Position numbers and translations under genes: made by a program. Shown here piece after piece: positions 2,234 through 53,804 of a DNA stretch of 64,000 bases. Source of the DNA: Moraxella lacunata (GTDB lineage: Bacteria > Pseudomonadota > Gammaproteobacteria > Pseudomonadales > Moraxellaceae). The notes beneath the pieces were generated by a model, which had not been told where the DNA came from, made no database searches, and saw only the letters and a list, made by a program, of their open reading frames with translations. The stretch lies in NCBI RefSeq assembly GCF_900453205.1, contig NZ_UGQU01000002.1, forward strand, positions 310,001 through 374,000. Reading direction: 5' to 3'. Position 1 is the first letter of the stretch, and each line of letters begins with the position of its first letter.

Positions 2234-5200
2234 ATGCCTCACATTGCCTACCTTGACCTAGAAATTGACAGCCATACCAAAAAGATGATGGACATTGGGG
2301 CGATTTTTGCTGATAAACATCTACATACCAGTAAAATGAATGAAATTATTAGCCAAATAAAAGACGCAGATTTTATTTGTGGGCATAATTTTTTAACTCA
2401 CGATTATACTTATATTCAATCGGATTTGCAAAGTATTAATAAAAATACCATAGACATTGTTGATACGCTCTATTTGTCCGCCTTATTATTTCCAAAAAGA
2501 CCTTATCACGCCCTAGATAAAGATTATAAAACAGATTTTGAAAACTCCAACAATCCTTTAAATGATTGTATCATTACCAAAGAGCTTTTGGAACAAGAAA
2601 TCATCGCTTTTCATCAATTATCAGAAAATTTAAAAATCATCTTTTATCAGTTATTAAAAGATAAAGCAGGGTTTGCACCATTTTTTAAAATTGTTAATTT
2701 TAATCAATACTGTTCATCAATCGTTACGCTCATTAAAAATCACTTTCAACATAAAATTTGTGAACATTCTATTTTAAATGAATTTTTTCAAAAATATCCG
2801 ATTGGGCTGTGTTATGTTTTGGCACTCATTGATTGTGATGAACGCCATTCTATTAGCCCAAGCTGGGTGTTATACAAACACCCAGAAATTGATTATATTT
2901 TTAATGAACTTCGTGCCACACCCTGTCATAAACCCTGTGTTTATTGCGATGATAAATTAAATGCCAAAAAAGCACTGGGTAAATATTTTGGTTATGATGA
3001 TTTTAGAAGTTATGATAACAAACCATTACAAGCACAGGCAGTACAATCCGCCATTAATGGTGAGTCTTTATTAGCGGTATTTCCCACAGGGGGTGGAAAA
3101 TCCATTACTTTTCAAATCCCTGCATTAATGGCTGGCGAAAATAAAAAAGGCTTGACGGTTATTATTTCGCCCTTGCAATCTTTAATGAAAGACCAAGTGG
3201 ATAATTTAGAAAATCGTGGCATTACCGAAGCAGTTACCATTAATGGACTGCTTGACCCCATAGAACGCCAAAAAGCCATAGAACGCATTAAAGACGGCAC
3301 GGCAAGTTTATTGTACATTTCGCCTGAAAGTTTGCGTTCTCGCACCATTGAAAATTTGGTATTGTTAAATAAAGATAGATTTTAAGGTTTTCCGTTCGGA
3401 CTGAGCTTGTCGAAGTCTAGGAAAACCGTTATGGTTCGACAAGCTCACCACGAACGGCTTTCTAGAAAAGTATACTCAATTAACAATACCGAAAATTTAA
3501 TTTTAAGTCGTACGGTGGCTCGTTTTGTGATTGATGAAGCTCATTGTTTTTCGGCGTGGGGGCAAGATTTTCGGGTGGATTATTTGTACATTGGCGAATT
3601 TATTAACCGCATTCAAAGTCAAAAAATGGTGGGGCTTAATATTCCTGTTTCTTGTTTTACGGCTACGGCAAAACCACAAGTGATTGATGATATTAAACAG
3701 TATTTTAAAGAACAACTGGATTTGGAATTAAAGTTATTTTCGGCAAGTGTTGAAAGAAAAAATTTGCAATATCAAGTTATTCCCCAAAATAATGAAGAAC
3801 AAAAATACCAAACACTGCGAGAACTGATTCAAATTTATGATTGTCCAACGATTATTTACGTGTCTCGCACCAAAAAAACCACAGACATTGCCACGCAATT
3901 ATCCCAAGACGGATTTAATGCCTTGCCCTATCACGGCAAAATGGACAGCGAATTAAAGATATTTAATCAAAATAGCTTTATCACAGGCGAAACGCAAATA
4001 ATGGTGGCAACGAGTGCGTTTGGAATGGGCGTAGACAAAAAAGATGTGGGCTTGGTGGTGCATTTTGAAATATCCGATTCTTTGGAAAATTATGTACAAG
4101 AAGCAGGGCGTGCAGGACGAGATGAAAATATACAAGCCAAATGCTATGTGTTATTTTCCAATGATGATTTGGATAAGCATTTTATTTTATTAAATCAAAC
4201 CAAAATATCACAAAAAGAAATCGGGCAAATATGGCGTGCCTTAAAAGAAAAGTTTGCCAAAAATAAAGCGATGTCCATTTCCGCCTTAGAAATTGCCCGC
4301 CAAGCAGGTTGGAATGATGAAATTAATGACATAGAAACGCGTGTTACCACTGCGATTAACGCCCTAGAAGAATCTGGCTATATCAAACGCGGGCAAAATA
4401 TGCCAAAAGTTTTTGCCAATAGTATTTTGTCGCCCAATGCCCAAACCGCCATTGAAAAAATCAACAATTCTACTTTAATTGCTTTTGATGATAAACAAAC
4501 CGCCATTCGTATTATCAAAAAACTCTTTTCACAAAGAAGTCAAAGGCAATTAACCGATGAACAAGCAGAATCCCGAGTGGATTATATTGCTGATGTTTTG
4601 GGATTACAAACCGAAAAAGTCGTCAAACTCATTACTTTAATGAGAAAAGAAGAAATCTTAGCCGACCAACAAGATTTGCAAGCCTATATTCCCAAAAATA
4701 GCCGAAGTTATCCGATTGTTAATAAAATCAATGAATTGTATGACATTGAGTGTTTATTATTGGAACAATTTCAACTGGGCGAAGGGGCATTATGCACAAG
4801 CCTAAAAGCACTCAACCATCAATTTGCCAATCAATATCATCATGATAAAATCAGTCCAAAAACCATTAAATCTTTACTTACTTTTTGGAAAATAAAAAAC
4901 TGGATAAAACGAGCCGAAGAGTCTTATCAAGAAATCAATTATGAGCTAAATCATTCTTATGATGATATTTTGGCTTTTATGCAAAATAAAAAAGAAAAAG
5001 CCATTTGGCTTGCAGGGTATTTATACCAATTGGCACAAGCACAAAATAAAGAAAAAAGCGATAAAAATGGCGATAAAAGTAATGAGACTTTGCCCGTTGA
5101 TTTTTCATTGGGCGAATTACAATCAGCGTTTTATAACAGTCAAAAAATAAAAATTAGCTTTGATGAGTTAGAAGATGCTTTATTTTATATTGCCAGAATG

Positions 5201-52777: not shown

Positions 52778-53257
52778 ATGACAAAGTATCCAACCCCAAA
52801 AATCATCATCGCTTATGCCTTATTTACAGGCTTATTAAGTGGTCTTCTAACCTTGCCATTTGTTAGCCTTTTTATGACAAGTCGTAATGATTGGGGTTAT
52901 TTGGCTATTTATTTTTATTGGTGGTTTTTGGTGAGTTTAGTACCTACCTTGTTAAGCGGTATTGTGATTAGCTATTTTAAAATCATCATCAAAAGACCCT
53001 TTGACTATTTGAAGCCTTTTGGTGTTGCATTTTTGGTATTTTTTATTTTGGGGTTGGTGTTTATTGGCGTTTTGGCACTTATGGAAATTGATTCAAGATT
53101 GTTGAAATTTGAAAGTGCTATCTACTTTATCATGCTAATATTTTGCATTGCATTGCATTGCATTGCATTGCATTGCATTGATAAGCGGAGTGTCATCAAC
53201 CATATTAGCCAAATTTATTTTTCCAAAATATTAAAAGGAAAATTTTATGAACAATAA
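52778..53257 (+). CDS. small membrane protein with a pentanucleotide repeat (frame-altered)
   Basis: About 159 residues with four membrane segments (IIIAYALFTGLLSGLLTLPF; YLAIYFYWWFLVSLVPTLLS; GVAFLVFFILGLVFIGVLAL; AIYFIMLIFCIALHC). A TTGCA repeat at 53143-53180 changes the frame. In the present frame the end reads CIDKRSVINHIS, whereas another frame reads ALISGVSSTILAKFIFPKY, matching the C-terminus of the neighbouring paralogue (ISTILAKFILPKY-type). One more repeat unit or two fewer would connect the two. RBS AAAAGGAAAA. No known function. Confidence 0.65.
   Translation: MTKYPTPKIIIAYALFTGLLSGLLTLPFVSLFMTSRNDWGYLAIYFYWWFLVSLVPTLLSGIVISYFKIIIKRPFDYLKPFGVAFLVFFILGLVFIGVLALMEIDSRLLKFESAIYFIMLIFCIALHCIALHCIDKRSVINHISQIYFSKILKGKFYEQ
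53143..53180. repeat. pentanucleotide tandem repeat (TTGCA), 7 full units plus TTG
   Basis: 38 bp of perfect 5-bp repeats in the coding region of the small membrane-protein gene. Such a unit, not divisible by three, changes the frame whenever copy number changes. See the corresponding finding. Confidence 0.95.
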
Positions 53258-53804
53258 TAAAGAAAACAAATACCCAACTTTAAAAGTCATTATGCTTTAT
53301 CCATTATTAGGTGGTGCTATTTTTTGTGTTATTGTCATTGCTATAATGTTTTTAATTTTATTAAATAGTGGTGTTGCTTTTTCATTAGAATATTTTGGTA
53401 TTGTTAAATAAAGATAGATTTTAAGGTTTTCCGTTTGGACTGAGCTTGTCGAAGTCTAGGAAAACCGTTATGGTTCGACAAGCTCACCACGAACGGCTTT
53501 CTAGAAAAGTATACTCAATTAACAATACCAATATTTTTATTTTTATTTAATGACATTTTCTTGGATTGGATGTATTTTAAATTTAATCATTGCTTTTATT
53601 TTTATTATTTTTAAAATCAAAATCATCAACAAAAATTATGCTAAAATTTTTGGCATAGGGTTTTTTATATACTTCTTGTCCAGTTTTTTATTTTTTCATT
53701 CTGATATGAATGTAGGTCAGGCACTTGTATTTGTTCTAGGTTGTGGTTTATTTGGTGGAGTGTCATCAACCATATTAGCCAAATTTATTTTACCAAAATA
53801 TTAA
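53247..53804 (+). pseudogene. paralogous small membrane protein interrupted by a MITE
   Basis: Removing the 133-bp element and one target duplication restores a frame of about 138 residues: KYPTLKVIMLYPLLGGAIF.. (paralogous to KYPTPKIIIAYALFTGLLS of the preceding gene), ..LEYFYFYLMTFSWIGC.. and the end GGVSSTILAKFILPKY. As it stands, translation ends inside the element at TAA after GIVK, and the frame reopens at 53550. The preceding intergenic sequence (AAAATATTAAAAGGAAAATTTTATGAA) is repeated at the next gene, showing tandem duplication. Confidence 0.8.
53397..53529. mobile_element. 133-bp MITE, copy 2
   Basis: Same as copy 1 (3358-3490) except one base (TTTGG for TTCGG near 53435). Ends GGTATTGTTAA and TTAACAATACC. 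Flanked by the 8-bp direct repeat AATATTTT (53389-53396 and 53530-53537). Confidence 0.92.

Follow-up and report, generated by a model that had tools for sequence, protein, structure and literature searches.

What is the 133-bp sequence that interrupts two different genes in the window (the whole 64,000-nucleotide stretch of Moraxella DNA analysed here), and what has moved it? The genome holding the window, G000, comprises 2.83 Mb in six contigs. An earlier note on this DNA had described two copies of a MITE, and its coordinates, the one-base difference (at element position 40), the 11-bp ends and the flanking 8-bp repeats were all reproduced. Both copies end in perfect 11-bp GGTATTGTTAA, have their core at element positions 28-105 and sit inside ORFs whose frame resumes past the element, as had also been reported. 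The features of the two loci are as follows.

3350..3357, no strand: target duplication, left copy, GAAAATTT
3358..3490, + strand: MITE copy 1, 133 bp, the same sequence as 62 others among 65 distinct contexts
3358..3384, + strand: left arm, an IS1-family end, 25/27 bases shared with the left arm of a 140-bp MITE
3385..3462, + strand: core, an inverted palindrome pair (REPIN-like), common to MITEs with other ends
3463..3490, + strand: right arm, an IS1-family end, matching the 140-bp MITE at 22 of the final 25 bases (22/27)
3491..3498, no strand: target duplication, right copy, GAAAATTT
2234..3385, + strand: interrupted helicase gene, 5' part, DEAD domain, stopping at a MITE-internal TAA
3491..7180, + strand: interrupted helicase gene, 3' part, Helicase_C and UvrD helicase domains
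53389..53396, no strand: target duplication, left copy, AATATTTT
53397..53529, + strand: MITE copy 2, 133 bp, element position 40 C to T
53424..53501, + strand: core of copy 2
53530..53537, no strand: target duplication, right copy, AATATTTT
53247..53804, + strand: interrupted ORF, 142 host codons stop to stop

In the host frame the helicase copy has 398 codons upstream of the element and at least 433 downstream. The copy at 53397 has 54 codons upstream and 88 downstream, within an ORF that perhaps encodes a small membrane protein with neighbouring paralogs, judged by eye. Comparison of empty sites, which the earlier note had proposed, found the helicase locus unoccupied in the congener G002. 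The G002 homologue is an uninterrupted 1622-aa frame with 90% identity over the 374-residue 5' piece and, at the DNA level, its alignments to the two flanks overlap by exactly 8 bases, one copy of GAAAGTTT. G011 and G016 are more distant, and there too the aligned helicase flanks lie too close together to accommodate the element. The 5' piece was matched in 8 of the 22 genus genomes, G000 included, and most of it only in G002, G011, G016 and G010 besides G000. G000 itself also offers an empty site: its copy at C6:937087 lies within an IS1 transposase gene, and an intact copy of that IS is uninterrupted and holds one TGTTATGG.

The whole genome was searched for the 133-bp sequence, as the earlier note had suggested, and 67 copies were found: the 22-base left-end pattern, with zero mismatches, occurred 67 times in G000, far above chance, and GGTATTGTTAA occurred 162 times against once for its reversed control. 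Sixty five distinct contexts were read out of these copies. The remaining two share long identical flanks with listed ones (608 plus 480 bases, and at least 1500 plus 239) and are therefore located in duplicated stretches. Sixty three contexts are identical over 133 bp to the copy at 3358 and two differ by one base, which points to a very recent burst and supports the recent movement that had been proposed. With its short non-coding sequence, 11-bp inverted ends and 67 dispersed copies, the element is indeed a MITE. An 8-bp target duplication, as claimed for the two window copies, holds for most contexts: 55 of 65 carry a perfect 8-bp duplication, four carry 7 bp and two carry 9 bp, with an exact flanking repeat absent in the other four. 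The perfect duplications average 80% A+T (53 counted) versus 57% for the window. Neighbouring copies within 2.5 kb of one another numbered 9 pairs against 3.8 expected, a count reached in 0.9% of simulations; the corresponding figures were 12 against 7.4 within 5 kb (4.9%) and 3 against 1.5 within 1 kb (19%).

Individual loci include a tandem pair of 133-bp copies with an 8-bp gap at C3:83412-83685 (L023), the outer left flank of which lacks a duplication. At C6:494674-495280 (L005), two copies face opposite ways with about 0.34 kb between them; one of them lacks a target duplication altogether, and the pair looks as if it had been rearranged.

The end-pattern search of G000 also recovered a 779-bp element with 8-bp duplications in the copies read, its ends being GGTATTGTTAAA and GGCATTGTTAAA (also given as GGCATTGTTAAACT and GGTATTGTTAAAAA). 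The search for a full-length element that had been recommended thus yields a resident IS1-family candidate, and the placing of the parent outside the window is upheld. In this element an InsA-like ORF is followed, beyond an A run, by an InsB'-like frame shifted by -1, which we take to be the arrangement of programmed frameshifting in IS1. The InsA piece scores 114.2 bits with NCBIfam NF033558 (IS1 family, cut-off 100); the InsB' piece scores 98.4 bits, just below that cut-off, and 66.9 bits with Pfam DDE_Tnp_IS1. InsB' was found identical at 7 places in G000 and has some match in 11 of the 22 genus genomes, many of them distant. Target duplications of the IS1 family are 8-9 bp long, and this length was found both for the MITE and for the copies of the 779-bp IS that were read. 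A co-resident parent combines the same ends with an IS1 transposase, as expected of an IS1-family derivative. The IS1595 or IS66 parentage suggested earlier does not stand, since the resident full-length elements with the same ends encode IS1-family transposase; the InsA piece scores only 23 bits for IS1595 (cut-off 75) versus 114 for IS1, and zero IS66 models were among its matches at E 0.001. A plasmid search with the 133-bp MITE gave zero matches, and one with the 779-bp IS gave two weak IS1-family matches.

A closer relative of the arms is a 140-bp MITE of G000. In a 27-base comparison of each arm, this MITE agrees with the 133-bp element at 25 bases (left) and 22 (right), against 19 (left) and 17 (right) for the resident IS ends compared with the 133-bp element. 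As the match to the resident IS ends reaches just 17-19 of 27, another IS1-family transposase could be the mover. The core of the 140-bp MITE is unrelated (TGTAGGGGCG...), and the two sequences part at the core edges. The 140-bp MITE has some match in 12 of the 22 genus genomes, and its type of core also occurs without IS1 arms (L221, L222, L232).

The core of the 133-bp element is likewise found apart from its arms. With the whole element as query at least 16 of the 22 genus genomes were matched, and G000, G002, G007 and G011 had 39-44 matches each, among the matches listed; in congeners the matches listed are mostly confined to approximately positions 28-106. The core match search scored about 39 first-look candidates per genome. 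From it we chose, not at random, 69 distinct full-length core contexts, with 7 partial ones and repeats set aside. Recognised arms lie on both sides in 15 contexts of type A, 30 of type B and one of type C (the IS1 arms of the 133-bp element); 14 of the 69 have no recognised arms and nine have a single or mixed label. The arm-label search was loose, so that some C labels are due to chance; L148 (M. oblonga), with a C label on one side, is a true relative (97% over 117 bases). The A arms resemble, at 19/24 each side, the ISAba3-like ends given in the available text of PMC6382973. Elements with A arms have 8-bp duplications in 10/10 cases, and these arms match a 793-bp element in G000 that encodes a 232-aa IS1-family transposase (NF033558, 181.5 bits) and has a duplication of its own of 7/8 by eye. 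Elements with B arms have 3-bp duplications in 17/20 cases. In G011 the B arms match an element roughly 844 bp long. Two pieces of it hit the IS5-family model NF033581, at 41.6 and 91.1 bits, both below the whole-protein cut-off of 140; this relative is a single sighting, with the transposase frame in two pieces and one end imperfect. Within G011, L131 (A arms) and L134 (B arms) carry one and the same 81-bp core. Taken together, the arm and core comparisons give the same arms with different cores and the same core with different arms.

These MITEs also occur close to, or are entered by, other elements. In G000, 17 bp separate a 133-bp copy from an A-type MITE (L099, approximately C5:163811-163943); the latter has an 8-bp duplication. 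In G015, the left arm of L180 is B-like and the right one A-like, and a TAGGGGCGAA unit adjoins it; L180 was set aside as evidence of a hybrid, as it may be a nested element. In G011 the core is itself a site of insertion: at L203:130-1540 and L211:130-1540 it holds an IS110-family element (NF033542, 221 bits) that has a long leader. Where both sides were read, the insertion point is CCCT/GAGC, in a B-type MITE at L203 and in an A-type MITE at L211, and the same IS110-family end lies beside the core at five more places (L139, L140, L157, L163, L164).

A tree of 70 cores carrying five arm labels is poorly resolved, with 7/55 inner branches starred. The labels require 23 changes on it against a shuffled mean of 32.8, a value as low being reached in 0/200 shuffles. 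The B label alone requires 11 changes versus 22.2 when shuffled, and the A label alone, which is hardly clustered, 13 versus 14.9. Ten A-B changes are needed, and in two sets of identical cores the members carry differing arm labels. The labels being more clustered than when shuffled, core exchange appears limited; the tree shows some mixing of arm labels and no more.

We consider it likely that the 133-bp element is a non-autonomous IS1-family MITE that originated through an exchange of cores and is moved in trans by an IS1 transposase. The observations that bear on this are the copy number, identity, duplications, empty sites, resident parent and arm/core combinations. An older IS1-family MITE of the 140-bp type would probably have lost its core to a REPIN-like palindrome pair, one that circulates in Moraxella within several kinds of transposon ends; we infer that the palindromes were where the cores were swapped, by recombination or by template switching. 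Transposase would be provided in trans by the resident 779-bp IS1-family element, and this enzyme would insert the MITE at AT-rich sites, mostly with 8-bp duplications. The same arrangement might instead reflect insertion of an A- or B-type MITE into a 140-bp-type MITE, with later deletion of the inner arms and the old core. Nested or adjacent MITEs are known here (L154; C4:181095 and C4:618046 adjoin 133-bp copies), and the right side of the element still has some sequence that can be aligned to the A arm of L131 and L138. However, two deletions are required, both ending at core edges, and no intermediates were seen, which makes this origin unlikely.

The core itself is an inverted pair of foldable palindromic units, as in a REPIN. 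Folding of the whole 133-bp element gives z of -6.5 and -8.7 on its two strands. In a set of 58 distinct cores from Moraxella, pairing is present in 216/232 cells of the local stem, with some two-sided changes, and in 427/450 of the outer stem and 956/1044 between the units, in both cases with mostly one-sided changes; all of these counts come from few independent events and without a shuffle control. The pattern TTCGACARGCTCANNNCGAAC occurs in 10/299 genomes of a phylum sample, including G000 (reversed control 0). Outside the genus, an inverted pair with its units 35-75 bases apart was found in 19/20 places from 6 genomes, these places having been chosen, some because the listing already displayed a pair. 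The flanks of these outside units share nothing, by eye, and the unit there looks like a plain REPIN. The inverted pair, the local stem with its two-sided changes and the pairs in six genomes outside the genus would all suit a core that is itself mobile as a REPIN via a Y1 transposase and has invaded MITEs independently. Against this, the RAYT transposase model (PF01797, Y1_Tnp) had zero matches in G000, whereas it was matched in 11 of the 22 genus genomes; we regard such independent invasion as quite improbable, and the present burst was probably driven by an IS1-family enzyme. Least probable of all is a Type II MITE, in which two solitary IS1-family ends flanking a resident palindrome pair began moving together with no 140-bp exchange: the arm-less cores offer a substrate and Type II MITEs are described as a random convergence of ends in the available text of PMC6382973, but the agreement of the arms with the 140-bp MITE (25 and 22 of 27 bases) extends well beyond the terminal repeat, unlike chance convergence.

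Formation of the 133-bp element by core exchange leads to a broader and much more tentative suggestion, namely that some REP-like pairs without a transposase of their own persist by changing vehicle between MITEs of unrelated IS families. What replicates over the long term would then be the core rather than the ends, with the 133-bp burst as its latest vehicle; we offer this as a possibility, with more doubt than belief. The available text of PMC3733652 does not settle how palindromes that lack a dedicated transposase come to spread, and offers borrowed transposases as one option. Here, one palindrome pair is enclosed by IS1-type ends in some elements and by IS5-like ends in others, the duplication length differing between the two, and one of its vehicles is freshly amplified to 67 copies, which makes the borrowed-transposase idea directly testable. 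It also suggests that MITEs be classified by ends and by core separately.

Several known systems share part of this pattern. MITEAba12, as described in the available text of PMC6382973, is also a small Moraxellaceae MITE of uniform length with AT-rich targets, stops in six frames and a co-resident IS credited with its movement. It has ISAba12 ends, 9-bp duplications, a variable centre and 90 copies spread over many genomes, whereas the 133-bp element has IS1-family ends, a core common to several MITEs and 67 nearly identical copies in one genome. That REP elements occur within a MITE and serve as IS targets is already known from QMITE2 of Coxiella burnetii, a MITE containing a repetitive extragenic palindrome that is a target of IS1111 and that also has short end-less copies (PMC5896051, PMC10969869, portions available). 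QMITE2 is, however, described in the available portion of PMC5896051 with one kind of ends, whereas the Moraxella core lies within ends of several IS families. The core resembles REPINs in being an inverted palindrome doublet capable of a long hairpin, but REPINs are RAYT-linked according to the available text of PMC3116915, whereas G000 lacks a PF01797 match and its doublet is enclosed by transposon ends. The CGTC REPs are dispersed palindromes without a dedicated transposase, for which the authors raised mobilisation by transposases of a broad spectrum of kinds; their layout of tag and short loop is absent, by eye, from the Moraxella units, and the available text of PMC3733652 does not contain the word Moraxella. 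A literature search of titles and abstract openings, with few subscription journals, contained no report of the 133-bp element, nor, within the same scope, of a palindrome pair or core spanning MITE ends of different IS families. The study of TIMEs (PMC4133298), to go by its title, reportedly deals with mosaic non-autonomous elements, derived from the Tn3 family.

What, then, does the element do to the genes it enters? Stops are present in all six of its frames, the first beginning 8-43 bases in, so that an entered gene is truncated. The earlier note held that the insertions are always in frame and that only a TAA within the element stops the host frame. The first statement is uninformative: 133+8 is 141, divisible by three, so the frame is bound to survive wherever the duplication is 8 bp long, and it is lost in the six of 65 contexts with 7- or 9-bp duplications. 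In-frame insertion was accordingly rejected as a functional trait, on this arithmetic and on the six-frame stops. The second is correct at 3358, where the single in-frame stop is the TAA at 3383-3385, and fails at 53397, where there are five stops. A preference for genes was also rejected, as 28/65 contexts lie inside long ORFs (150 codons or more, of which 15 or more on either side, a threshold that the 142 codons at 53397 do not reach) versus 826/1106 sampled window positions; long ORFs are thus entered less than random placement predicts. The orientation of the copies inside them is 16 to 12. A scan of 3200-3650 found one promoter-like site, located outside the element, and no terminator-like site, and delivery of a promoter or terminator by the element was rejected on this basis. 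An Rfam search of the window returned two tRNAs and nothing else. Adjoining the second MITE, seven consecutive GCATT pentamers occupy 53145-53179 of the window within the ORF at 52778-53257; a change in their number would shift the frame of this ORF, making phase variation possible.
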